The notes under the pieces were generated by a model, which was not told the origin of the DNA, did no database searches, and saw nothing but the letters and a program-made list of their open reading frames with translations. A program made the position numbers and the translations under genes. This document shows positions 2,234 through 14,868 of a DNA stretch of 64,000 bases, piece after piece. The first letter of the stretch is position 1. The number at the start of each line of letters is the position of its first letter. The stretch is from Mesorhizobium sp. AR10 (GTDB lineage: Bacteria; Pseudomonadota; Alphaproteobacteria; Rhizobiales; Rhizobiaceae): NCBI RefSeq assembly GCF_024746795.1, contig NZ_CP080524.1, positions 4,132,001-4,196,000 of the forward strand, in the 5' to 3' direction.

Positions 2234-3754
2234 TCAAGCAAGGTCTACTTCGACCCAGAGGCCACCTGGGCCACGAGACGCATCGCGCGGCGCATTGCGA
2301 ACCGCCAGGATCGAGCCGGAAGGCGAAGCAAATGCCGGCTTTCCGTTCTTGTTTGCGAGCCAGGCATCGTCGGCGCGGATGACGCGGCCGTTGGTCCTGT
2401 CGGCAAGTGCGGTCAGGATGGCGTCGTAGGGCATTTCGCGCCAACGTACCTTCCCGGCGTCGTGCTCGTTGGTGGGAATGAAGGCGGAAAGATCGGCATT
2501 GGTCATCAGCTCGAGGCCCTGCCTTTGCGGCGTCGCGTTGTGGCTGCCGTGATGGGCGACCTTCAGATAGACGGTGCCCGCCATGAGGTCGGCCGCCGTC
2601 ACGGTCCCCTGCCCCACTGGCCATTTCAAATCCTTCCAGCTCAGCCAGTTGCCGATCTGCGCATCGCCCGGGAACAGGAAGACCCTGCCGGTGTCGATGA
2701 ATTCGAAGGCCAGCACGAGGCTGGTGTTGTTGACGCCGCGGTCGAGCTGCATGGCAAGATCGGCGGCGATGCCGAGCCAGTCGGCGTCGATGCGGCGCCA
2801 GGACTGGTCGGGATCCTCTTCCGGTCGAGCCTCGGCTACCTGGCCGGAATAATGCTTCCAGACAAAGGCGCCGATGTCGCCTTGCGTATCGCTGGCGCTG
2901 CCGCTCAACACCGCCGACAGTTCAGTGCCGACGCTGCGCTCGAAGGGGCTGAGCTCGTCCAGCCAGGTTCCGTCGCCGGTTTCGTTCACCGCCAGGCCAG
3001 CACTGAGCGCCCGCGCGAACGGTCCGCCGGGGCCAAGCGGATACATTTCGCTCGTCCTTTCCTCCAGACGCAGCGCTGCCTTGTCGCGCGGCGGACCGAG
3101 CACATAGATGCGCAGATTGGGCAGCGCGGCAATCGACAGCGGCGCCGCGCCGGGCTCGAAATAGGCAGGAGGCTGCTTTGCCGAAAGTTTGATGGCAGCG
3201 TCGCGCGCCGCGCGAACCCGTTCGCCCTTGGCCCCGAACTGGAAACCGAGGACGGATTGCAGCCCGTCGCGGACTCCCGACAGATGCGGGCTCAGGCCGC
3301 GCTCGGCGTCGAGCCTGCGGCTTGCCCCCTGCAGCACCCTCAAGGCCTGAGCCCTGGATTTGTCGAGCTCGATCGCTTCGAGATCAACTGGGTTTTCGGT
3401 CCAGCCCATCCACACTTCGCCGACGGAAAAATCCTTGAACAAGTCGTCCGAGGTGAGGAAGCCTGAAACATGGTCCCAATGTTCGTGGGTAACGACGAGA
3501 ACGTCGATCTTGCCACCCGTCTCGGCCTTGATGTCGGCGACGATGTCGCCGATGAGAGCCGGGCCGCCCTTGACCGATGTGTGGATGCCGCAATCGATGA
3601 GCATGCGAAACAGCGAGCCGTCCGCTTTGGGAAAGCTCAGGAGATGGCAGTCACCAATGCCCTGGCAATAATGCCGCACGGTGACAGCCGGCTTGGGGGC
3701 CGCAGCAGGACTGGCAGGTCGAGGTGTTCTGCGGGTTGCCGGTCTTCTAGACAT
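2234..3754 (-). CDS. Metallo-beta-lactamase-fold hydrolase
   Basis: A 506-residue MBL-fold protein. The zinc motif is VVTHEHWDHVSGF, with ligands His90, His92, Asp94 and His95. It is preceded by GIGDCHLLSFP and LIDCG strands as in the ComEC-like MBL branch, and followed by later ligand segments FLFPGDAQ and VAHHGSHN. No signal peptide or membrane segment is visible, so it is probably cytoplasmic. Members of this branch are nucleases or phosphodiesterases, but the substrate is unknown. The ATG at 3754 is chosen because GGAG lies six bases upstream; an earlier in-frame ATG at 3775 has no such site. The start overlaps the stop of the upstream protease gene by 8 bases, implying translational coupling and joint function. 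Confidence 0.8.
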   Translation of the reverse strand: MSRRPATRRTPRPASPAAAPKPAVTVRHYCQGIGDCHLLSFPKADGSLFRMLIDCGIHTSVKGGPALIGDIVADIKAETGGKIDVLVVTHEHWDHVSGFLTSDDLFKDFSVGEVWMGWTENPVDLEAIELDKSRAQALRVLQGASRRLDAERGLSPHLSGVRDGLQSVLGFQFGAKGERVRAARDAAIKLSAKQPPAYFEPGAAPLSIAALPNLRIYVLGPPRDKAALRLEERTSEMYPLGPGGPFARALSAGLAVNETGDGTWLDELSPFERSVGTELSAVLSGSASDTQGDIGAFVWKHYSGQVAEARPEEDPDQSWRRIDADWLGIAADLAMQLDRGVNNTSLVLAFEFIDTGRVFLFPGDAQIGNWLSWKDLKWPVGQGTVTAADLMAGTVYLKVAHHGSHNATPQRQGLELMTNADLSAFIPTNEHDAGKVRWREMPYDAILTALADRTNGRVIRADDAWLANKNGKPAFASPSGSILAVRNAPRDASRGPGGLWVEVDLA

Positions 3755-6700
3755 CGTCGTCTCCATGGCTGGCATGCAGCATGGCGAAGGGCTCGGAAAT
3801 CTCGCTGCCGAAATAGAGCGCCCGCAGCGGCGACAGGTAATTCGCGGTCGCGGTCTGCGACTGGCGCTTCTGCCGGTCGGTACTGCCGGTGTTCTTGATG
3901 ATCGAGTAGCGGATTTCTTCCTGCCCCTTGCGCGGGTCGATGATGACGGTGGCGCCGCCGCGGAACCAGAAAAAGCCGTCGCCGGCCTTCACGCCGCTCA
4001 GTGCCGGCGTGCCGTCGAGTTGGACCGGAATGCGTTGCTGGATGACGGCGATCACCTCTGTGCGGAACGAGCCGTCGGGCTCGACGCGGCGGGTCGCGCG
4101 CACGCCGAAGATGTCGAAGGTGGTCTCGCCCTTGCGCGCCTTGCGGAGCAACCCACCATGCTGGTCATAGCGCGGCAGGTCAGGCAGCAGGCCGAACTGC
4201 TTGTAGAGATCGGGATTGGCAACAAAGGCCTTCCGCATCGCCTTCCAAAGCGTGTGCCGGTTCTTCTCGTTGAGGGCGAAGATTTCGGAGCGATTGAGTT
4301 TCTGGTTCCAGCTCAGATCGACGTCGCGCAGCAAGCCGTTCAGCCAGCCGGGCGAAGGATCGTCGGGCGCGCTCCAGGCAAGCGTCTCCTCCGATATCGT
4401 GCGCACGTCGCGCGGCAACAGCTTCCATTTGCGGAAGGATTCCATGAAGGCGAGACGATAGTGCAGCGGGTCGTCGGGGAAAGCGTCGATGTCGGCCGTG
4501 ATCAGCGCGCGCAGATACTCGCCGAAGGTGATGTCGACGGCCGGGCAGTAGTCGAGCGCGCGAATGCACATGGTCAGCATCTGCTGCGCGATCTTGGCGG
4601 TCTCGTCGGTGAGGCGCTCGACCAGGCTGGGGTGCAAGGTGCCGGCGGGCAGCACGCCGGTTCCACCGGTGGCCAGTTGTATCAGGTCGTCGGTGCGGCG
4701 GTCGGCGATGGCCAGGAACGCCTGGTAGACGGCGAAGACCAGGATCGAGCCGCGGTCATGCGGCTCGAACGTCTTGTCATAGTCGAGGTCGGCCATGGCG
4801 GCACCGCCGTAGTCGCGCAGCGGTCCGGCGCGGCCGCTGCCTTCGCCGAACTGCCTGCCGATGCCGGACAGCAGCGTGGCCGCAGAGACATCGCCCCTCG
4901 CCTTGGCAATCTCGAAGCTGACCAGCTCCTTGAGGGTAAAGTGCTGGAACAGGGCGACGATGTCGGCAAAGGCCTCATGGAAAGCCGGCACGTCCGGGTT
5001 GGACGCTTCCTGGAAACGGCGGTGCAGCCCGTCGAGCAGCGCATGCGACATTTCATGGGCGACGATGTCGCTCGACAGGCAGGAAAACACCGTCGTGCCC
5101 GGCGTGGTGACGTCGCCCGCCTTGCTCCCGGCGGGGAAATAGCCGAACAGCAAGGCCTTCTTGTCCGGGCTGTAATAGGCATTGTCAGTGCGCAGCGCAT
5201 GCGGATAGATGCGCAGCCGCGGCACTTCATGAGCCTTCATTGTCATGTCGCCGCTGCGACCGGCGGGATAGTGCGGAGCCCATAGCGCGCGGCGGCCCAA
5301 TGCGCGCTCGAAATGCCCGATCGTGGTCATGGCCACGGCATAGACCATCTGCTGGTGGAACTGCGGATTGCCTTCCGATGGCGGGAAGCCGTCCTGCGCC
5401 AGCAAGATCTTGTCGTTGAGATCGACCGGATCGTAGACACGGTTGGACGCCGGATCGACATCGACGATCTCGAGATATTCTCCAACCGGACCGGGCATCA
5501 ACGCGTTGGCCGTCGACGGCTTGTCGTCCCACGGAACGGAAAGCGTGGCCTGGAAGACGGAGACGGAATCGAGGCGCTTGGCCACTGACGGATCGAGCGC
5601 ATAGATGCGCAGCCGCCGTTTGGGCGGCGGCAAAGGGCGTGGCTTGCGCTTGACCGGCGATGCCGGCGTCGTCTGCGTGGCGGTGACCGGTCTGGCACCT
5701 GCCCTCCCCAGCATGTTTTCAAGAAAGACGCGCAGCGGTTTCGATGGATTGCCTTCGTCAAGTGCTGCTTCCAGATAGCGATTGCGTGCTGCGGCCGAGA
5801 TGGCGGCTGGATCGCCATCGGGGTCGGCGATCGCCCGGTCGACCGAGGCGGCACGCTGCGCCATCTGCGTCAGTTCCAGCGTCAGCATCTTTCGCCGCTG
5901 GCGAGCTGCAGGCGACAGCGGCGCCGCGGAATTGCCGCCGCCGGTGATGAAATCGAGCCAGCCCCAGGAGGATTGCGCCGGCGGCAGTTTCGTCAGCTGG
6001 TTCTCCGCCCGTGGCATCACCGACAGCGCGGCACCCGCCCGGACCACGCCCTGCCCGATCTTCTGCAGCGTCTCGGCGGCTCCCATTTTGGCCGTCGACT
6101 TGGCCGCCTTGGAAAACAGCGCGAAACGGACAGCTTCGATGCGCATCCAGGCTTGCGAATAGTTCTTCACGACATCCCAGTGCTCGGCCAGCCAAAGCGC
6201 TGCCGCAGCGGCGATCTGCGGCGTTGCCGCGGACGTGCCGGAACCGTCCATATCGACGATCTTGGCACAGTCGATCTCAGCCCACGGCACATTCGGCGTG
6301 TAGGCGCCAAGCGCGGTCGTCATCTTCGAAGCCGGCCCGAAATTGCCCTGCATGGTGCCGAAGCTGAGGCCGGAGTAGGCACGACCGTCGCCCATCACAC
6401 CACAGGCTGCCAGCACGCGGTTGTAGCGAGCCGGAAAGACGATGCTGCTTGGTGTGATCGTGTAGTTGTTGCCGGCGGCGGTGACCATGACGACGCCGTT
6501 GTCGTAGGCAAGATTGACCGCGTCGACCAGCGCTTCGGAGGTGAGGCCACCCATGCTCATCGACAGGACCTGGGCGCCTTTGGAACGGGCATAGTCGATG
6601 CCTTGCACCATCGTGCCGGTGGTCAGACGAACCACCCAGTCGGCAATGCGCACCGGGATGATCCTTGCTTGCGGAGCGGCGCCGACGAAATCGGTAAAAC

Positions 6701-7412
6701 CCGACCAGTGCGGCGATGTGCCGTCCAGTCTGTTGCCGGCGAGCAGGCTGAGCGTGCCGGTGCCGTGGCCGCGATTGCTGGCGAGGCCGCCTGCCGGGGC
6801 GTGATCGGTTGCGTTGTTCGGCCCGGTGCCGTCATTGACGAAATTGCGCTGCAGCGCCGCGACGAGCCCGGCGGGCAAGGTGCGGTGCGCAGGATCGAAG
6901 CCGGTATCGAGATGGGCGATGGTGATTTTGGCCTGCTTGGCGCCGACCTTGGCACGGGCGGCCGCGAACTGGCTGAAGGCCACCCCCGCATTCCAGGCGA
7001 CAACGCCGGGCACTGTGGCCTGGCCGCCGCTTGGATTCTGGTCATCGAAGGCGCAGACCGGACTGGCGCTTGCTGCCATGCCGCGGTCGCCGTTGCTGTC
7101 CCTGTAGTCCCACTGTTGAACGAGGTCGGGCTCGATGGCCAGAATCTCGGAACCGCCGGCTGCCGCGAAAGCCTCGCCGCGGCCGACAAGAGCGTGGGCG
7201 TCATCCCACGGATTGTCCGATTGTTTCGCGCCGAGCTTGAGCCAGGTCGCGCCGCGATCGGCACCGGCGCCAAAATCGCCGCGGGAAGCGCTTGGCGGCA
7301 CGGTCAGGATCGGCTCGACTTCGACCGCTCCGAGGCGAAGCGACCGGCTGCTTGCTGCAAAGCCTGCACCGTCACCACGAACCTTGATCAGGAGCCCCGT
7401 TGTTGCTGCCAT
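3747..7412 (-). CDS. Double peptidase: subtilisin-like S8 domain plus zinc gluzincin domain
   Basis: A 1221-residue protein with two apparently complete proteolytic centres. The S8 domain spans about residues 160-410: Asp169 in HLDTGFD, His216 in RGHGTGT, oxyanion Asn315 in TAAGNN and Ser394 in GSGTSAATP. A proline/lysine-rich linker (about 575-600) leads to a second domain with HEMSH (His786, Glu787, His790) and a downstream Glu813 in FHEAFADIVALF. This HExxH...E arrangement belongs to gluzincin metallopeptidases (thermolysin/fungalysin type). The first 150 residues may act as a propeptide or chaperone-like domain. No signal peptide is seen, so export is not evident. It overlaps and is probably co-transcribed with the MBL gene downstream. 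Substrate and role are unknown. Confidence 0.85.
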   Translation of the reverse strand: MAATTGLLIKVRGDGAGFAASSRSLRLGAVEVEPILTVPPSASRGDFGAGADRGATWLKLGAKQSDNPWDDAHALVGRGEAFAAAGGSEILAIEPDLVQQWDYRDSNGDRGMAASASPVCAFDDQNPSGGQATVPGVVAWNAGVAFSQFAAARAKVGAKQAKITIAHLDTGFDPAHRTLPAGLVAALQRNFVNDGTGPNNATDHAPAGGLASNRGHGTGTLSLLAGNRLDGTSPHWSGFTDFVGAAPQARIIPVRIADWVVRLTTGTMVQGIDYARSKGAQVLSMSMGGLTSEALVDAVNLAYDNGVVMVTAAGNNYTITPSSIVFPARYNRVLAACGVMGDGRAYSGLSFGTMQGNFGPASKMTTALGAYTPNVPWAEIDCAKIVDMDGSGTSAATPQIAAAAALWLAEHWDVVKNYSQAWMRIEAVRFALFSKAAKSTAKMGAAETLQKIGQGVVRAGAALSVMPRAENQLTKLPPAQSSWGWLDFITGGGNSAAPLSPAARQRRKMLTLELTQMAQRAASVDRAIADPDGDPAAISAAARNRYLEAALDEGNPSKPLRVFLENMLGRAGARPVTATQTTPASPVKRKPRPLPPPKRRLRIYALDPSVAKRLDSVSVFQATLSVPWDDKPSTANALMPGPVGEYLEIVDVDPASNRVYDPVDLNDKILLAQDGFPPSEGNPQFHQQMVYAVAMTTIGHFERALGRRALWAPHYPAGRSGDMTMKAHEVPRLRIYPHALRTDNAYYSPDKKALLFGYFPAGSKAGDVTTPGTTVFSCLSSDIVAHEMSHALLDGLHRRFQEASNPDVPAFHEAFADIVALFQHFTLKELVSFEIAKARGDVSAATLLSGIGRQFGEGSGRAGPLRDYGGAAMADLDYDKTFEPHDRGSILVFAVYQAFLAIADRRTDDLIQLATGGTGVLPAGTLHPSLVERLTDETAKIAQQMLTMCIRALDYCPAVDITFGEYLRALITADIDAFPDDPLHYRLAFMESFRKWKLLPRDVRTISEETLAWSAPDDPSPGWLNGLLRDVDLSWNQKLNRSEIFALNEKNRHTLWKAMRKAFVANPDLYKQFGLLPDLPRYDQHGGLLRKARKGETTFDIFGVRATRRVEPDGSFRTEVIAVIQQRIPVQLDGTPALSGVKAGDGFFWFRGGATVIIDPRKGQEEIRYSIIKNTGSTDRQKRQSQTATANYLSPLRALYFGSEISEPFAMLHASHGDDDV

Positions 7413-7945
7413 GGCATGACCCCACTTTCCTGAACTGTCAAAGTAGAAAACTGCGGTGCCGTTTCAGACTGAAGCAATGCCGAGCGGCAAGCAAGTCAAC
7501 AAGCTCGTGCGTTTGAAGTCACATGTCGTCGCGCGAGCTCGGACCATCGCGCCCTTTGACCGCCGCCTCTGTGACCTCCTTCACAGACGGTGGAGAGGGT
7601 TGCGCAGACATATGGTTCCTGCGGAAGCCGACATTTCGATTTCGATCGGTCTCCTGGCGTCTTTGATAAATTCGTTGGCCATCCCGGGCGTCAAACGCGT
7701 CACCCGGTGAGTGCAAGAATTTTTGATCACCTAGTCATTTTCACAACGGCCGTCTGCACGCTTCTCGGCACCTCCCACCGTGCGTGCAGACGGCCTTTCA
7801 CCAATCTTGCGGCTCGAAAAATATCGAACTCCAGGGTGGCGAAAAGCGCCGCCCGCAGCAGCGGCGGCGTGAATGAACGCCAGGGCTTTGATGTTCACCC
7901 CCTCTTGCCGTAAACTTGAGCGATTGCGGCAAATGGGAAATCAAC
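7413..7945 (+). other. Divergent intergenic region between the protease and Crp/Fnr genes
   Basis: These 533 bases separate two divergent genes and must carry both promoters. Short open frames exist on both strands, but none has a convincing ribosome binding site or recognisable protein. The only clear structure is the long inverted repeat at 7748-7795. I could not identify a consensus FNR box. Confidence 0.6.
7748..7795. repeat. 14-bp perfect inverted repeat
   Basis: GGCCGTCTGCACGC (7748-7761) is followed after 20 bases by its exact complement GCGTGCAGACGGCC (7782-7795) and then TTT. It could form a strong hairpin or be an operator. It lies in the shared upstream region of the protease/MBL operon and the Crp/Fnr gene, where a terminator would have no obvious gene to serve. 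Confidence 0.8.
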
Positions 7946-8632
7946 ATGGCTTCCGCCAGCGCGAACGACAGCAATGATCTGCCGCGCCTTGCGCGGATTG
8001 ATCCGCTCCTGTTCGATCTTCTTTTCAGTGGCTGCAAAGTCGAACGCTACGCCGCCGGCCAGCATCTCTTCGTTCAGGAGGATGCCGCCGACCGCATCTA
8101 CGGTGTGATGAACGGCACGGTGGAGATCTCGATCTATTCGCCGGGCGGCCAGAAGCTGGTGGCCAATATCGAGCTGTCCCGCAGTCTTGTGGGCGAGATC
8201 GGCGCGCTCGACGGGCGCCCGCGCACCGCCACCGCCATTTGCCTTACCGGCTGCGAGCTGGTCTCGCTAAGCCGAACGCAACTCTTTGATCGCATTGAAA
8301 AAAATCCACCGTTGGCGCGCGCCATGATCGAACTGTTGTGTGCGCGGCTGCGCTGGGTCAGTGGCGAACTCGGGGATCAGGCATTCTTCGGCATCGAGGC
8401 CAGGCTGGCGAAGCGGCTGGTCTTTCTGGCCGAAGTGATGGCGGACAGTGCAGGATGGATACCGATCTCTCAGTCCGAACTGGGGGAATTCCTCGGGGCT
8501 ACACGCGAGTCGGTCAACAAGACGCTCAACGACTGGCGCAGCCGCTCGATCATCGCCATCAAGCGTGGCGGCCTGCGCATCACCAACGCTGCGGCACTCA
8601 ACCAGATTGCCGACTCGCAGGATGATGACTGA
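7946..8632 (+). CDS. Crp/Fnr-family transcriptional regulator
   Basis: A 228-residue regulator. The N-terminal cyclic-nucleotide-binding beta barrel (about 20-130) contains a phosphate-cassette-like segment, GEIGALDGRPRTATA, close to the cAMP-binding consensus. A long dimerisation helix follows, then a C-terminal winged helix-turn-helix (ISQSELGEFLGATRESVNKT). It lacks the N-terminal cysteine cluster of FNR, so oxygen sensing by an Fe-S cluster is unlikely. ATG 7946 is preceded by a GGGAAA site; an upstream in-frame TTG is less likely. It is divergent from the double-peptidase operon and convergent with the P450-peroxidase gene. With an adenylate cyclase 4.5 kb away, cAMP is a plausible ligand (inference). 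Confidence 0.85.
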   Translation: MASASANDSNDLPRLARIDPLLFDLLFSGCKVERYAAGQHLFVQEDAADRIYGVMNGTVEISIYSPGGQKLVANIELSRSLVGEIGALDGRPRTATAICLTGCELVSLSRTQLFDRIEKNPPLARAMIELLCARLRWVSGELGDQAFFGIEARLAKRLVFLAEVMADSAGWIPISQSELGEFLGATRESVNKTLNDWRSRSIIAIKRGGLRITNAAALNQIADSQDDD

Positions 8633-8648: not shown

Positions 8649-11600
8649 TCAGAGCCGCGATATCAGGTAGCGCAGCGCGGACCGGCTCGGCATGAAGAAA
8701 TAGCCGCCGCCCTTCGTGGTGACGAATTGCGGCATGTCTTGAAGCAGCGTGACTTTCTCCCATGACGGAATCGAGAACCGGGCGCCGCCGTCACGCGAGC
8801 CGATCGTCGGATCCTTCTCGCCGACGAGGCCCTGGAACGAAGTCGACGAGACCCAGGTCTGCTGGATGAATTCGTACTGACGCTCGATGTCGGCGTTGAG
8901 GCACATGAAGAGCAGCCCCTTCTCGACCTTTCCATTCTTGCTGTCCTGCTTCTCATAGGTGCGGCCGACCCGCAGGATACGGTGGCGCTTGCCGATATTG
9001 ATCTGCGTCTCGCGGTCCTCGCCTAGCGAATCGCGCGGGTTGGAACGGCGTATGTGGGCACCGAGCGGGCAGCGATGCCCTTGCGGATCCTCGGCGCCAA
9101 TGGCGAAGTTATTGTCGACGACGCGTCCCGGTTGGTCGGGGTTGCGCACCAGCGAGCTACCGTTCTGCCAACGTCCGAGCATCTTGGCGGCAACCCAATC
9201 TTGCGTGATGGCCGGGTTGCCGACTTGGCTCGCGGCCAACGCCGCGGCCTTTTTGCAATACTCGTTGAAGATGTCGACATGCTGCTCGAACTGGCGAACG
9301 ACGAGGAATGAGCCGTTGCGGCCGAAATCGCGCGGCGGTGGCGGCAGGCCTGGAATCAGCCGGCTACGGCGCACCTGCGACAGGATTCCGGTCCGATCGC
9401 GTGATGCGCTTACCGACGGCGAGGACGGATAGAACCCATGCTCGTCACGATAGCCGAACAGGAACTCGCCGGGCGCGACCAGGTGCATGGGCGCGGCACC
9501 CCTGCTTGCACGGGTCGTGCCCCGGACAATCGGCTGCGAAATCCCGTCGGCGAAGCCGAAATGCTCATATGCCGGCCGACGTTCCGACTTATCGTCACCC
9601 TTTGCCGCATCCGGCGATTTCGTGTTCGTGTTGGTTGGATCCCGATTTACGACGAGCGGCAGATCGGCGACAACCTTCATGCCTGCGCCGGTCGTCTTTC
9701 GTTTCACGGTGGCGATCTCGGTCTCCAACCTTCCCGGTTCTTCCGCATAGCAGACGATGACCAGGTCCACAGGCTTCTTCAACGAGCCCCACTCCCATTC
9801 GTCCGGTGCGTCGCGGCCTTGGTCGTTCAGGATGCGCCCACGCTCGGGATTGCCCATGCCGTGGCGAAAGGCGATCGGGAATGTGTCTAGTGGATCGTCC
9901 TCCACCCCCTCGTCGAGCCCAAGCTGGCGCAGACCGCCTGGACCAAAGGCCACTGTCATGGCTCGCCCGGAAGGCTTGCCTTCGCCGAAACTCGTCTGCT
10001 CGATGACGAAATCGAGCCAGGCCCTGCGTTTGGACGCCGGCAATTTTTCCGGCACTCGGATCGCAATCATATGCGCATAGCCAAGCGGGCCGAACGGACC
10101 GAAGAAGATGGACTGGATCTCGCCGGTTTCCAGCTGCTGCTCGAGAGGCGCCGGAAAGGCTGAGCTGATGTTGGCCACCAGCGAGGTGGTCTTTTGAACG
10201 GTGGTTCTCTCGCTTACCGGACGCGGTAGCGAACCGAACAGGCTCATCCAGTCGCGCGTCTCGTTGCCGACGGCGGAAGCAATGCCGCGCCTGATCCGGG
10301 AGTTGATCCGGATGCGCGTGGTGTTGAGATGGGGATAGGCTGAATACCAGAACAGCGTCGGCACCTGCTGGCGCCGCGCCCAGCGCTTGAAACGATCGCC
10401 GTCGCGCGCGCCGTCAAGGAAGAGCCAGCGTGTACGTGGATAGCCCTCGGTGTTGCTCCACACGCCTGTCAGGCCGGCGGATGCCTTGGCAATGAAGTCT
10501 TCGAGATAGCTTTCCCAACTGCCGCCGTAGTTGGACAAGAACATCAGTCTGTTGGAGCCCGGCAGCAGCACCCAACGGGCGAAATGGATGGTGTTGATGG
10601 TGTTGAGAAAACCTGGCTTGAATACCTTCTGCGCAGCTATCGAAATCAGGTAGAAGGCAAACCTGAGCGCCAGCCGCCGCAAGATGCCGGCCTTCATCGT
10701 CGAAATCGCGGTCAGATGGTTTTGCGCCGCGTGATCCTCTTTGCCGAGGATCTCGTTCAATGCAGATATGCCGATCGATGTGCTTTCCGGCCGATCCTTG
10801 TCCTCGCGGCGTCGCAGCGCAAGCAAGCACGAAAACACCAGCGCCGCCGCCGCTACCAACACTCCAAGTCCTGACAACAGAAGCGAAGTGACGGCTACGG
10901 CTATAGCGGTGAAGGAGATTTCCGAGGAACTGATGTCGATAGATCTGCCGAACACCACACTGTATGTCATGTACCAGCAGGCAGCCCAGACGACCGCCAC
11001 CGTCGCGAAAACCGGCGGCACCAGCAAGGTTGTCATGAGGGCACGGCCCCAATTGCCTGGCGGCCTTTCCAGCAGGCTTTCGGCCGGTTCGAACGCCCAG
11101 GCAAACGTTCCCAATGACTGGACATGCTGGCGAGCTTCAGCGAGCACGGCGGGAGCGTTGCCGGTGCCCTTGCGTGGCCGCTCTACGATGCCGCGTACGG
11201 CTTCGAATAGCTCCTGCTCGGCCTTGATGCGCGCGACCGAGTGCCCCGGAGTCCCGGAAAACACCAGACCGGCCGCGCTGCCGAAGGACGGCGAAATCTC
11301 GATGTTGTGCTTGCGCAGGAAGTCCTCCAGCGCCTCGCCGTCGGGCATGCCGCACGCATCCGTGAGGATCGGCCGCAGCCGGTGGCCGATGACACGCGCG
11401 ACGGCACCAATGACGTCGTCGGTGCTGCCGTCGCCGGAGATTTCGAACACGAGCGCCCCGGTCTCGACGCCCGATTTCTCGTCCTTGCCGAGGGCGGCGA
11501 CAGCCAGGCTGGTGAAGTGGATTGAGCCCGCCGTGTCGAGCGCGCTTTCGAGCTCGTCGATTGCCGGATTGCCGAGCGCGGCAACCTTGTCGCGTACGGC

Positions 11601-12968
11601 GTCCAGAGACGCCGCGCGGGTGATCGGGCAAACCACGGTCACCATGGACTGATCGACCGTGCGGCAGAGCGCCGAGCGTTCGAAGTCGACCTTGAGGCTT
11701 TCCGGATAGGCGCCGATATTGGTCATCCGGCCAGCCCTGCCGCGCGCGCGGCGCAGTTTCTGCTTGTTGAACAAAGCGCGCACGCACTCGCCGATCTGGA
11801 CCCTGGCGATTTCGGCGCCGATGCACAGGTGAATGCCGTGGCCGAAAACCAGATAATCGCGATGTGGGCGCGATGCGTCGAAATCATTTGGGTTTTGCAC
11901 GGCTTCGGGGTCGAACATCGCCGACAGCGTTGCCGGCATCACCACCGTTCCCGCCTTCACCAGGCGTTCGCGTCGCGTGCCCCTGGCGATCGTTGCGTCG
12001 CGGGCGGTGTAGCGCCATGGGCCGACCCAGATGGGCCTGAAGCGCATGGCTTCCAGGATGACCCGGTCCAGCTTTTTGGTATCGTCTTCTGCCAGCGCCG
12101 CGTCGACGGCCTGCCGCGCGTCGGGCCGCGACAGGACCACATCGAGGCAATTGCCGCCGGCAAGCACATTGGTCGGAACAAAGCCGGTGATCATGCCGAG
12201 CATGATCGAATGAAGGTCGGGTAGCGACAGGCGCCCCTCATCCAGCAAGGCGACCAATCTGGGCAGCGGCTGCTCGCCCTTGGGCTGCCTATTTCTGATC
12301 GCTGCAATGGAACGGTCGATGGTCCTGATCAGCCGATCGCCGGCCACCACCGCGAGTTCGCGCGTGGTCGCGTTCGCCGTTGGATCCGAAAAGAACAACG
12401 CACTCAATGCTATCGACCAATCGGCGAATTCGGACTCATCATCGATCTCGAGGCCGAAATAATCGCGGCAGATGCGCACCGGCACGATCTTCATCAATTC
12501 GGCGATCGCGTCGAAGCCCGGCCTGGCGCGCTGCATGATCTCTCGTGAATGGCGCGCGGCGATCGGCCTGACGGCTGCTTCGACCTCCGCCGGCGGGAAA
12601 GCCCCCAGCACCGACGATTTCATGCGCCGGTAGTCCTCGCCATCCTGCATGCCGAGGATGAAGTTCGATCCTCGCGCCAGTTCGGTCATCTCCGGCCCGT
12701 AAGGGGTCTGGAACTCGTCACCGCGCTCCAGTATGTCGCGAACATCGGCATTCCTGGTGACCAGCAGGAAATTGCCAAAGGCCAGGTTCGGCCAGAACCG
12801 ACGCAGCAGCGCCAGCGCCCAGCGTGGGTCTTTGAACAAGAAACCGGCGATGCGCGATGCAAGACCGTTGGAGCGGAGACGCCCAAGGTCAAACGGTGGC
12901 ATTTCCGACAGTGGGCGCTGGCTTTTCTGGGCCGCGCGAACTGCATCGAAATACTTGATCTTGATCAT
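8649..12968 (-). CDS. Giant fusion: cytochrome P450 - membrane segment - DyP-type peroxidase
   Basis: A 1439-residue protein. Residues of about 50-430 are a cytochrome P450 with ExxR (Glu306-Arg309) and heme loop FGHGIHLCIG (Cys382 as thiolate ligand). Residues of about 440-600 and 785-900 contain two related segments (IHFTSLAV; IHFARWVLLPG followed by FLSNYGGSWESYL) resembling the ferredoxin-like half of DyP-family proteins. Two hydrophobic stretches at about 643-668 and 686-716 predict membrane anchoring. The C-terminus (about 950-1430) is a DyP-type peroxidase with GFADGISQP (Asp1141) and CPLGAHIRRSNPR (proximal His1305). P450s of this class normally need separate electron donors; here hydrogen peroxide could link both hemes (inference). 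It lies 127 bp after the cyclase gene, possibly in one operon. Confidence 0.85.
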   Translation of the reverse strand: MIKIKYFDAVRAAQKSQRPLSEMPPFDLGRLRSNGLASRIAGFLFKDPRWALALLRRFWPNLAFGNFLLVTRNADVRDILERGDEFQTPYGPEMTELARGSNFILGMQDGEDYRRMKSSVLGAFPPAEVEAAVRPIAARHSREIMQRARPGFDAIAELMKIVPVRICRDYFGLEIDDESEFADWSIALSALFFSDPTANATTRELAVVAGDRLIRTIDRSIAAIRNRQPKGEQPLPRLVALLDEGRLSLPDLHSIMLGMITGFVPTNVLAGGNCLDVVLSRPDARQAVDAALAEDDTKKLDRVILEAMRFRPIWVGPWRYTARDATIARGTRRERLVKAGTVVMPATLSAMFDPEAVQNPNDFDASRPHRDYLVFGHGIHLCIGAEIARVQIGECVRALFNKQKLRRARGRAGRMTNIGAYPESLKVDFERSALCRTVDQSMVTVVCPITRAASLDAVRDKVAALGNPAIDELESALDTAGSIHFTSLAVAALGKDEKSGVETGALVFEISGDGSTDDVIGAVARVIGHRLRPILTDACGMPDGEALEDFLRKHNIEISPSFGSAAGLVFSGTPGHSVARIKAEQELFEAVRGIVERPRKGTGNAPAVLAEARQHVQSLGTFAWAFEPAESLLERPPGNWGRALMTTLLVPPVFATVAVVWAACWYMTYSVVFGRSIDISSSEISFTAIAVAVTSLLLSGLGVLVAAAALVFSCLLALRRREDKDRPESTSIGISALNEILGKEDHAAQNHLTAISTMKAGILRRLALRFAFYLISIAAQKVFKPGFLNTINTIHFARWVLLPGSNRLMFLSNYGGSWESYLEDFIAKASAGLTGVWSNTEGYPRTRWLFLDGARDGDRFKRWARRQQVPTLFWYSAYPHLNTTRIRINSRIRRGIASAVGNETRDWMSLFGSLPRPVSERTTVQKTTSLVANISSAFPAPLEQQLETGEIQSIFFGPFGPLGYAHMIAIRVPEKLPASKRRAWLDFVIEQTSFGEGKPSGRAMTVAFGPGGLRQLGLDEGVEDDPLDTFPIAFRHGMGNPERGRILNDQGRDAPDEWEWGSLKKPVDLVIVCYAEEPGRLETEIATVKRKTTGAGMKVVADLPLVVNRDPTNTNTKSPDAAKGDDKSERRPAYEHFGFADGISQPIVRGTTRASRGAAPMHLVAPGEFLFGYRDEHGFYPSSPSVSASRDRTGILSQVRRSRLIPGLPPPPRDFGRNGSFLVVRQFEQHVDIFNEYCKKAAALAASQVGNPAITQDWVAAKMLGRWQNGSSLVRNPDQPGRVVDNNFAIGAEDPQGHRCPLGAHIRRSNPRDSLGEDRETQINIGKRHRILRVGRTYEKQDSKNGKVEKGLLFMCLNADIERQYEFIQQTWVSSTSFQGLVGEKDPTIGSRDGGARFSIPSWEKVTLLQDMPQFVTTKGGGYFFMPSRSALRYLISRL

Positions 12969-13095
12969 GCGCGTTCAAGCCCCCCGGCTGTCCACGTCAT
13001 TGCGATGCCGGCTCCTCAAAGGCCTAGGTTTGCATCGGCTGCGCGTATGTGAATGTTTTCACAATTGTCGGCGTTCGGCCAGCCAAAGACCCACT

Positions 13096-14868
13096 TCACT
13101 TGGCCAGTTCAAAATTGGTGACGAGGAATTCGTTTGCCGCCTTGTCCGCGAAAGGTATCCAGCGAACCCGCTGCTCGGAGAAATCAGGATGCCGTGTGGC
13201 AAAAATGGCCAGCTCCCGCTTGGCTTCTTGCTGCCGCCCGCTTTTCATCAAGGCACCGATCTTCAAAAACCGGGCGTAGAAATAGCCGGGCGACAGGCTA
13301 AGCGAGCGGTCGGCGGTAGCGATCGCAGACGGCCAGTCCTCGACGAAACAGTAGGCTGCGGTCAATTCTCCCAGATTGTGGAAGCGGTAGAGGTCGAAGG
13401 GGCTCAAGCGCTCGGCATCGAGAAAGAACGGAATCGCGCTGCCGGCGTTGCCAAGCAGCAGCTGCGCACTGCCCATTGCCGAGCGCGCAAAAGCAAAGCT
13501 CGGATTGATGTGGATCGCCTCCTCAAGATGCTCGGCCGCGGATCTCGGTTCTCCCCTCATGATAGCGACGGCGCCGAGATGGGCGTGCGGACGCGCATCC
13601 AGACTGTCCATCAGCAGCGCCTTGCGCGCGTACTGCTCGACCATGTTCAAATCGCTACCGTCGCCGAAACGCAGCCACGCCCGCCAGAAATACCACCACG
13701 CCAGTTCGTTTAGCACGGCACTCGAGTTTGGATCTTCCCGGTAGCCCTTCTCGAAAAATTCCAGCGCGATTTCCGTGTCGCCGCGTGTGCGCCGGTTCAT
13801 ATGCCAGCGCCCGCGCCGTACCAATTGCCAGGTTTCGAGGCTTTCCCACGGCACCTGGAACGTCCGCACCTGCTCTGCCCGATCGACCTCCTTGTCGAGG
13901 ATCGAAACGATCTCTGCGCCGATCTGGTCGCGCAGGCTGAAGATATCGACCAGATCGCGATCGAACCGCTGGGACCAGACCAGTCGCCCGTTTGAGGCAT
14001 CGGCAAGCGACGTGTTCAGACGGATCTTTCCGCCGTTGCGCATCAACGTGCCGCTGACGATGTAGCGCGCACCGAGTGCGTTGCCGATCACCCGTGTTCC
14101 CAGCGTGTCGTCGCGAAACTGGAAGCTGGAACTCTTGGCGATGACCGAGAGCCATCTTGTGTTGGAAAGACCGTAGATAATGTCCTCGGCGATACCGTCT
14201 GCCATATAGCCGACGTCAGGCTCGCCTCCGTGCCCCTGGAACGGCAGGACGGCGATCGCCGGCGGACCTTTGGCCGACGGTGTCTGCTGACCATGGAATT
14301 GAGGAATGGCCGCGACTGACATCGCAGGCGACGACCCATTGCTGCTGCGGCCAGCGATCAGAACACGCACCGGCAGCGCAATGTTCTTCAGCATGAACTC
14401 GCCGAGATCGGTGAACTCGGCCGCCGTCTTGTCTTTCACATGGTGCCATGTCGTCTCTGAAACGGCGAGACCATCGCGCGGTGCAAACTCCTGGACTCTG
14501 GCGGCGATGTTGACGTCATCGCCGTAGAGACGGCCTTGGCGAACGATGACGTCGCCGGTGTTGATGCCGGCACGAAAGGGCATCCGCATGTCTTCGGCAA
14601 CCGATGCATTGAGCGCGACGATCCGCCCCTGGAAATCGAAGGCAGCGCGCAGAGCTTCGATCGGATTGCCGAATTCGGCCATGATGCTGTCACCGGCATC
14701 GCCGAACGTGCGGCCGCCAAATGTGCCACAGCTATCAGCGATAATGTCGCGTCGCTCTTCAAACGCGGCAACAGCGGATTCGTCATCGATACCCATCAGC
14801 CGTGAGAATCCGACGGCATCGATGGAAATGATTGTCGCCAGCTGACGGGTGTAGTTCCGTTCAGCCAT
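13096..14868 (-). CDS. Class III adenylate cyclase with TPR-like C-terminal repeats
   Basis: A 590-residue protein. The cyclase domain covers about residues 8-170: metal aspartates Asp17 (IISIDAVGFSRLM) and Asp60 (AGDSIMAEF), the GINTGDV strand, and transition-state residues Asn120 and Arg124 in LYGDDVNIAARV. All core catalytic positions appear present. A middle region beginning AIAVLPFQG contains VGYMADGIAEDI and SVIAKSSSFQF, the TolB-like or FlgO-like module common in rhizobial cyclases. The C-terminal 230 residues form TPR-like helical repeats. A GGGG site precedes the ATG. No membrane segment is seen. It precedes the P450-peroxidase gene on the same strand. ATP rather than GTP as substrate is inferred. 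Confidence 0.85.
   Translation of the reverse strand: MAERNYTRQLATIISIDAVGFSRLMGIDDESAVAAFEERRDIIADSCGTFGGRTFGDAGDSIMAEFGNPIEALRAAFDFQGRIVALNASVAEDMRMPFRAGINTGDVIVRQGRLYGDDVNIAARVQEFAPRDGLAVSETTWHHVKDKTAAEFTDLGEFMLKNIALPVRVLIAGRSSNGSSPAMSVAAIPQFHGQQTPSAKGPPAIAVLPFQGHGGEPDVGYMADGIAEDIIYGLSNTRWLSVIAKSSSFQFRDDTLGTRVIGNALGARYIVSGTLMRNGGKIRLNTSLADASNGRLVWSQRFDRDLVDIFSLRDQIGAEIVSILDKEVDRAEQVRTFQVPWESLETWQLVRRGRWHMNRRTRGDTEIALEFFEKGYREDPNSSAVLNELAWWYFWRAWLRFGDGSDLNMVEQYARKALLMDSLDARPHAHLGAVAIMRGEPRSAAEHLEEAIHINPSFAFARSAMGSAQLLLGNAGSAIPFFLDAERLSPFDLYRFHNLGELTAAYCFVEDWPSAIATADRSLSLSPGYFYARFLKIGALMKSGRQQEAKRELAIFATRHPDFSEQRVRWIPFADKAANEFLVTNFELAK

Follow-up and report, generated by a model that had tools for sequence, protein, structure and literature searches.

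Proteins that carry two different heme domains in one chain have been described in fungi. In the dioxygenase-P450 fusions (linoleate diol synthase/PpoA, AOS and EAS types), a peroxidase-type domain is joined to a cytochrome P450 that, according to the accessible part of one report, needs no reductase (PMC13049297), and the first domain, which is N-terminal, belongs to the peroxidase-cyclooxygenase superfamily, as stated in the available part of a review of four peroxidase superfamilies (PMC4420034). Corals have AOS- and HPL-lipoxygenase fusions, in which the available text describes a catalase-related domain (PMC5617202). Here we analyzed a 64,000-nucleotide stretch of the Mesorhizobium sp. 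AR10 genome (contig NZ_CP080524.1, positions 4,132,001 to 4,196,000; hereafter the window), in which one gene encodes a P450, an unnamed middle module (MID) with a transmembrane hairpin inside it, and a DyP-type peroxidase. We conclude that this single membrane-anchored P450-DyP fusion protein is real. Tentatively, and with a probability of roughly 0.38, we read it as a cytosol-facing, membrane-anchored, peroxide-driven two-heme oxidase that would be under cyclic AMP (cAMP)-CRP control.

The window protein and the fungal fusions have in common that two different hemes, one of peroxidase type and one of a P450, are placed in one chain. They differ in that the peroxidase of the window is a DyP, is C-terminal and comes from a bacterial host; a Pfam scan of the fusion protein at E up to 10 found no peroxidase-cyclooxygenase-type domain, and the accessible parts of the fungal reports mention neither a MID module nor a transmembrane hairpin. 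The coral proteins are alike in that a catalase-superfamily heme domain is fused to another oxidising enzyme, as far as the available text goes, but their partner is a lipoxygenase and not a DyP. No P450-DyP fusion was found in the literature searched, in which most subscription journals were beyond reach: the accessible part of the peroxidase review mentions P450 fusion only for linoleate diol synthases (PMC4420034), the words 'fusion', 'fused' and 'peroxidase' are absent from the main text of a survey of alphaproteobacterial P450s (PMC8197338), and no such fusion is mentioned in the available part of PMC8230527. Two-heme P450 fusions as such are already known in fungi (PMC13049297); it is the pairing of a P450 with a DyP around an unnamed module that appears to be new, within the reach of these sources.

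The fusion gene and its modules

The fusion gene (8649..12968, on the minus strand, as are all its parts below) is one open reading frame of 1439 amino acids (aa), with its ATG at 12968 and its stop ending at 8649, in agreement with the single chain originally predicted at this place. The chain runs from the P450 through the two-part MID module with its hairpin to the DyP peroxidase. A protein database search with the fusion protein returned 1020 proteins at E <= 0.001, with full-length relatives from 85% identity downward; among the best 120 of these 1020, the named ones are mostly called 'cytochrome P450' or 'Dyp-type peroxidase'. Conservation was counted in the 114 proteins longer than 1350 aa among these 120, the window protein included. 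C382, E306, R309, D1141, H1305, R1333, H484 and H795 were invariant (114/114). The ratio of nonsynonymous to synonymous substitutions (dN/dS), taken over five segments of the window gene against three relatives, spanned 0.09-0.51 overall, with 0.13-0.15 for the P450, 0.26-0.40 for the first MID half, 0.20-0.51 for the transmembrane and link segment, 0.09-0.16 for the second MID half and 0.18-0.25 for the DyP. A frameshift, an assembly error or a chance joining of two genes, a danger of which the original prediction had warned, was not found: it is ruled out by full-length orthologues in many genomes, the invariant key residues and purifying selection, and we give it next to no weight.

The P450 domain (residues 1-430, 11679..12968), delimited by profile hidden Markov model (HMM) and alignments, scored 41.4 bits with PF00067 (cut-off 22.8), and its residues 70-392 matched CYP113A1 in a PDB sequence search (E 6.3e-21). 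It has the K-helix EXXR motif as EAMR (residues 306-309, 12042..12053) and the FxxGxxxCxG heme loop as FGHGIHLCIG (residues 375-384, 11817..11846) with the ligand Cys382. Together with the profile match over its cut-off, these hallmarks place it in the P450 superfamily.

The DyP domain (residues 945-1437, 8658..10136) scored 23.1 bits with PF20628, the DyP C-terminal domain (cut-off 20). PF21105 DyP_N reached 14 bits, under its cut-off of 27.5, and the NCBIfam DyP model TIGR01413 reached 92.6 bits (E 2.8e-26), under its cut-off of 100.5. Residues 1209-1435 matched the Deinococcus radiodurans DyP in the PDB at E 2e-39, and Foldseek, run on the predicted model, returned that protein (8re2) as its best match (TM-score 0.85 on target, E 3.3e-24). 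The GXXDG motif is GFADG (residues 1138-1142, 9543..9557) with the catalytic Asp1141, the proximal His1305 lies in HIRRSNPR (9033..9056), and the distal Arg1333 (8970..8972) corresponds in the alignment to the leading Arg of the RRG of 7anv. The GXXDG motif with its Asp, the proximal His, the distal Arg and, on the predicted model, the fold are those of DyP-type peroxidases; they are shared with D. radiodurans DyP 8re2, DyP2 and AnaPX, which we take to be class V (C/D-type) DyPs. The listed PDB DyP chains are about 440-490 residues long, whereas the window DyP is fused to MID and a P450. With both heme domains over a Pfam cut-off, the intact Cys-ligand loop and the proximal His of the original prediction hold, and both domains would be expected to load heme.

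Between the heme domains lies MID, a conserved module split by the hairpin into two halves. The first half (11169..11651), ferredoxin-like in the model, carries His484 and Asp513, and the second (10239..10751), with the stretch IHFARW...SNYGGSWESYLEDF, carries His795; both were assigned from HMM, model and conservation. The hairpin (10797..11018), assigned from hydropathy, model and charge pattern, has predicted helices at about residues 651-672 and 686-724. The two membrane helices first proposed to separate the two enzymes are retained, but they are not a mere separator, since they stand between the halves of a third module. Pfam found nothing significant over MID. Its model is confident, with a mean predicted local distance difference test (pLDDT) of 89.6 and a predicted template modelling score (pTM) of 0.86, which rules out a foldless spacer. 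The predicted fold appears to resemble that of tandem ABM/SchA-like proteins (WhiE-ORFI 9lmn, AbxO 9ltx) at about 10% identity, from which MID differs by the transmembrane hairpin between its halves, and on this model MID would be a dimeric alpha+beta-barrel-like module. Because a shared fold shows no function, this likeness gives MID none.

DyP and chlorite dismutase were not among the best 50 matches of MID in the VIA listing, which is no evidence against kinship. Within the window family, hhalign gave no link of the two MID halves as repeats (probability 0.3%), of the second half to DyP (0.2%) or of the first half to DyP (0.5%). In three split MID proteins (L043, L129 and L130), the first half is matched as well by the HMM of the second (16-27 bits). 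One search returned 5432 MID relatives at E 0.001, and none of the best 120 listed has a Pfam domain on it. In 106/114 relatives of the fusion, both outer flanks of the hairpin hold more Lys plus Arg than the loop. A hairpin with both heme domains on the same side, as first suggested, is the likelier topology on this pattern and the model.

The I helix of the P450

The I helix of the window P450 reads GFVPT (residues 262-266, 12171..12185), and GF(V/A/G/T/M)PT in the family, with P265 and T266 in 114/114. The acid-Thr pair has lost its acid: no Asp or Glu stands at residues 261-266 in 114/114, whichever register is chosen, and among 21 other P450s of such loci the acid is present in 0/21, with Pro in 19/21 and, at the next column, Thr in 16/21 (Gln in 3, Val in 1, Asn in 1). 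Judged from the alignments, the acid is lost throughout this P450 family. A profile alignment against CYP113A1 and MycG, ungapped through the I helix, pairs P265 with the acid position, where these two have Ile and Glu, and T266 with the Thr position, where CYP113A1 has Thr and MycG has Ser; the register of 5vws is ambiguous in it. A MAFFT alignment with four other P450s of the same genome has the acid at the P265 column in 4/4 and Thr at the T266 column in 3/4. In single-sequence alignments, which have gaps close by, P265 falls on the conserved Thr. The I-helix Thr is probably kept, and P265 as a CYP152-like stand-in for it was dropped on the ungapped alignment.

The CYP152 peroxygenases (OleTJE and kin) have likewise lost the acid, and a Pro is conserved in the corresponding part of their I helix. 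They carry Arg-Pro there, according to the available part of one report (PMC5377825), whereas the window family has Val/Ala/Gly/Thr/Met-Pro-Thr. No chain named CYP152 was among 60 PDB chains in the single-sequence alignments or among the 60 shown of 170 with the profile. A lost acid with the Thr kept appears unusual, yet it would be a weaker sign of peroxide use than the Arg-Pro of CYP152.

The Thr kept in the better register lowers our confidence in a peroxide-driven oxidase and raises it for a conventional P450 using O2 and NAD(P)H, to which ferredoxins encoded elsewhere would give electrons and beside which the DyP would clear leaked H2O2. Such an enzyme, for which the normal heme loop and EXXR speak as well, may lack the acid, as the O2-using CYP113A1 does, and a catalase-like partner could serve as a guard too. 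The acid is missing family-wide, however, and a guard beside a DyP would not predict that P450 and a catalase relative replace each other and do not co-occur, as is described below. Moreover, when 19 P450 loci were scanned crudely for motifs and the matches judged by eye, only spurious-looking frames and no convincing ferredoxin came up nearby. We regard the conventional enzyme as possible but somewhat unlikely. Peroxide use without a reductase, as put forward in the original prediction, came out of the comparison only somewhat likelier, on the lost acid, the catalase relative in place of the P450 elsewhere and the result of the ferredoxin scan.

Recurrence of the modules and exchange of the second heme

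A MID-based search identified 19/297 genomes in the order and 27/398 in the phylum, together 36 genomes. The loci were readable in 35 of them (the 3.3-kb contig of the remaining one, G002, gave no match), and in 35/35 the DyP was fused to MID or lay within 1.2 kb. A scan of named genomes found 515 relatives, of which the best 80 loci were kept (L046-L125); MID and DyP were in one frame in 80/80. As a control, 26 DyP matches in 121 genomes were taken, of which 8 were known MID loci and 18 were newly read. Thirteen of the latter are ordinary (EfeB-like) DyP loci without MID, and a P450 or catalase-like gene was found in 0/13 within up to 8 kb, two of the loci (L154, L155) being shortened by contig ends. 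The other five are L163, L164, L165, L166 and L138; L165 has P450, DyP and MID. On gene content, the association of the modules is strong.

The P450-MID-DyP single chain is present in the window, in Mesorhizobium, Chelativorans, Nitratireductor, Bosea, Rhizobium Root483D2 and others, and also in two loci of other families (L038, L131). A separate P450 gene accompanies a MID-DyP gene in L036 and L037, three separate genes are found in L039, L040, L043, L044 and L126, and smaller MID-like genes occur with DyP and P450 in L135, L137, L141, L142, L145, L148, L149 and L165. L140 encodes a DyP-P450 fusion in reverse order. A second mega-fusion family has the order MID-DyP-P450-SGNH hydrolase and about 1550-1590 aa (L163:392-5155 of genome G112, contig C105; relatives P0242-P0361). 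The C-terminal half of L163 found 195 proteins at E <= 0.001, and the named members among the best 120 listed are from Bradyrhizobium, Rhodoblastus, Methylobacteriaceae and Burkholderiales. Its P450-like part has no Pfam match, and hhalign to the window P450 gave a probability of 91.8 (E 7e-7); the I-helix Pro and the Cys are kept in 114/114 aligned members. The SGNH Ser is present in all 91 that reach the hydrolase, 23/114 being gapped there and several of them about 1270 aa long.

These architectures bear on the possibility that two pathway steps were fused only for co-expression, each heme working with an oxidant and a substrate of its own and without shared peroxide. The split genes of many genomes indicate that fusion is not needed for function, as co-expression alone would allow. 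Physical coupling is nevertheless favoured because fusions occur in different orders, and we regard mere co-expression as quite improbable.

The P450 is exchanged for a catalase-superfamily (CAT) gene in some genomes. Within fetched stretches of 7-19 kb in 35 genomes, the locus had a P450 in 22, a CAT gene in 9, neither in 4 and both in 0. With fixed margins and kinship ignored, 5.7 genomes with both would be expected, and the chance of none is 1e-5. On a DyP tree of 41 rows, with several forks open, the two states changed at least 4 times. PF00199 Catalase was over its cut-off for L133 and L143; L041, L128, L132 and L144 had no Pfam catalase match and were assigned by similarity to L133, and the CAT genes were compared only with catalase. 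Their proximal RxxxY (R378, Y382) is invariant in 10/10.

The exchange is also compatible with a hydroperoxide-isomerase pair, by analogy with the fungal dioxygenase-P450 proteins: DyP/MID would make or reduce an organic hydroperoxide, such as that of a lipid, and P450 or CAT would rearrange or cleave it. We know of no DyP that forms lipid hydroperoxides, which speaks against such a pair. P450 and CAT do swap at one locus and are both found fused to DyP, and hydroperoxide-metabolising hemes of the same two kinds are known from the available parts of two reports (PMC13049297, PMC5617202), one of which states that P450s of this type do not depend on any particular residue at this point of the I helix (PMC13049297). 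We consider an isomerase pair unlikely.

Two observations were made beside these loci. In L130:8688-11390, a DyP and a catalase-superfamily protein are fused in one chain of 900 aa; close to it are another catalase-like gene and a partner family of 155 aa with the motif WQGKVF. A small family lies near MID/DyP/catalase-type loci (L128:7070-7513, L129:9484-10062, L130:2684-3151, L041:2-493, L042:12418-13395); L128, the sole member scanned, had no Pfam match, and the HMM of the family matched nothing in the P450 loci listed.

Neighbourhood, proposed regulation and proposed function

Directly upstream of the fusion gene lies a gene for a class III nucleotide cyclase with TPR repeats (13096..14868, minus strand; PF00211 over its cut-off), and a Crp/Fnr-family regulator gene (7916..8632, plus strand; PF00027, PF13545) is convergent with the fusion gene. 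The cyclase upstream on the same strand and the Crp gene facing from downstream were found in 73/80 loci; of the 7 exceptions, 3 are at contig ends (L064, L098, L108). Genome-wide, PF00211 matches six times, in five open frames. A pattern scan located a CRP-type palindrome, TGTGAN6TCACA, 79 bp upstream of the start codon of the fusion (13048..13063, no strand assigned) and a second one upstream of the Crp gene (7570..7585, likewise). Against these 2 sites, 0.03 would be expected in the window; the entire 6.88-Mb genome has the exact pattern at 9 places, these 2 among them, and the reversed pattern at 2. Among loci with upstream DNA, the palindrome before the fusion is exact in 56/78 and within one mismatch in 73/78, with a variable core; it is missing even with one mismatch in L085, L090, L102, L104 and L114. 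Elsewhere in the same loci there are 11 exact sites in 1.417 Mb. An exact site lies within 600 bp of the Crp gene in 43/75 loci, and the Crp recognition helix reads RES(V/I)NK in 71/78. From these patterns we infer that Crp may bind the palindrome and that cAMP would be its ligand and signal; the direction of regulation is likewise provisional.

Other neighbours vary. A TPR protein replaces the cyclase in two distant fusion loci (L038:5158-6909, L131:4453-6114); its N-terminus looks SARP-like by eye, and Pfam found only TPR (L038). A cyclase-type gene of 1064-1113 aa stands beside the split P450/MID/DyP loci L036, L037, L043 and L044, and that of L036 has zinc ribbon, cyclase, AAA and TPR matches in Pfam. 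The genome's second DyP (L138, G000:C2:2968836-2971246) has no MID or P450 match and is back to back with a cyclase-AAA-TPR gene, about 1.1 kb beyond which lies an exact CRP palindrome, one of the genome's 9. The product of 3747-7412 in the window has 1221 aa, a subtilase domain (PF00082) and, later, a metalloprotease-type HEMSH motif; its gene is divergent from the Crp gene, and the second palindrome lies between the two. The S8 peptidase gene beyond Crp was rejected as a member of the unit, being present in only 25/80 loci. Most 'clusters' of neighbour genes were antisense frames of conserved genes and were discarded.

In the favoured reading, the transmembrane hairpin would anchor the chain at the inner membrane with P450 and DyP on the cytosolic side, and the MID halves would meet beside it as a scaffold or substrate site. 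DyP would make Compound I with H2O2 or a hydroperoxide, and the P450, without the acid of the O2-activating acid-alcohol pair, may also use peroxide, by peroxygenase or hydroperoxide chemistry. The substrate that the two hemes might oxidise together would be hydrophobic and probably an acyl lipid, and cAMP and the neighbouring Crp would control the unit via the CRP-type site before the gene. We propose peroxide chemistry because of the lost acid, the exchange with a catalase relative and the DyP partner, and a lipid substrate because of the membrane anchor and the SGNH hydrolase of the sister fusion.

Several observations weigh against this reading. The better-supported register of the I helix loses only the acid and keeps the Thr (T266 in 114/114, and 16/21 others), the O2-using CYP113A1 is also without the acid (Ile), Arg before the Pro as in CYP152 is absent in 114/114, and two of the 21 other P450s are without the Pro (L043 Ala, L140 Met). 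The apparent absence of a ferredoxin is weak because ferredoxin genes need not be close. Four of 35 loci have neither P450 nor CAT (G112, at a contig end, G382, G630 and G341; G112 carries the L163 fusion elsewhere), L164 has a P450 beside a DyP with no MID match, and L166 has a DyP and a weak MID match with neither P450 nor CAT. The catalase distal His is present in 5/10 CAT sequences and replaced in 5/10, and at the position of the DyP Asp the L163 family has Asp in 101 of 114 members and Glu in the other 13. The hint from the SGNH hydrolase comes from another fusion family, in which the SGNH Pfam score of L163 is under its cut-off. The hairpin flanks hold about as many Asp plus Glu as Lys plus Arg, and many of the counts rest on related genomes.

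A broader and still more doubtful reading is that of a widespread, so far undescribed bacterial system for processing peroxide, built around MID as a new family of membrane-anchored barrels. In it, DyP and an interchangeable second heme, of the P450 thiolate or the catalase type, would act on a membrane lipid, and the formation of an oxylipin-like product would be controlled by cAMP and CRP. MID itself has one invariant His per half and might contain a third active or heme site.

The window protein would be a P450 natively joined to a DyP peroxidase. MID is a large family that has no name as yet and whose partner in the genomes, DyP, is clear. That a catalase relative has repeatedly taken the place of a P450 beside one kind of peroxidase is a natural experiment on the abilities that two unrelated hemes share. 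To our knowledge, few physiological roles of DyPs have been established in bacteria. Here a DyP gains a constant partner, a place at the membrane and a probable regulator, and its natural substrate thereby becomes a testable question.

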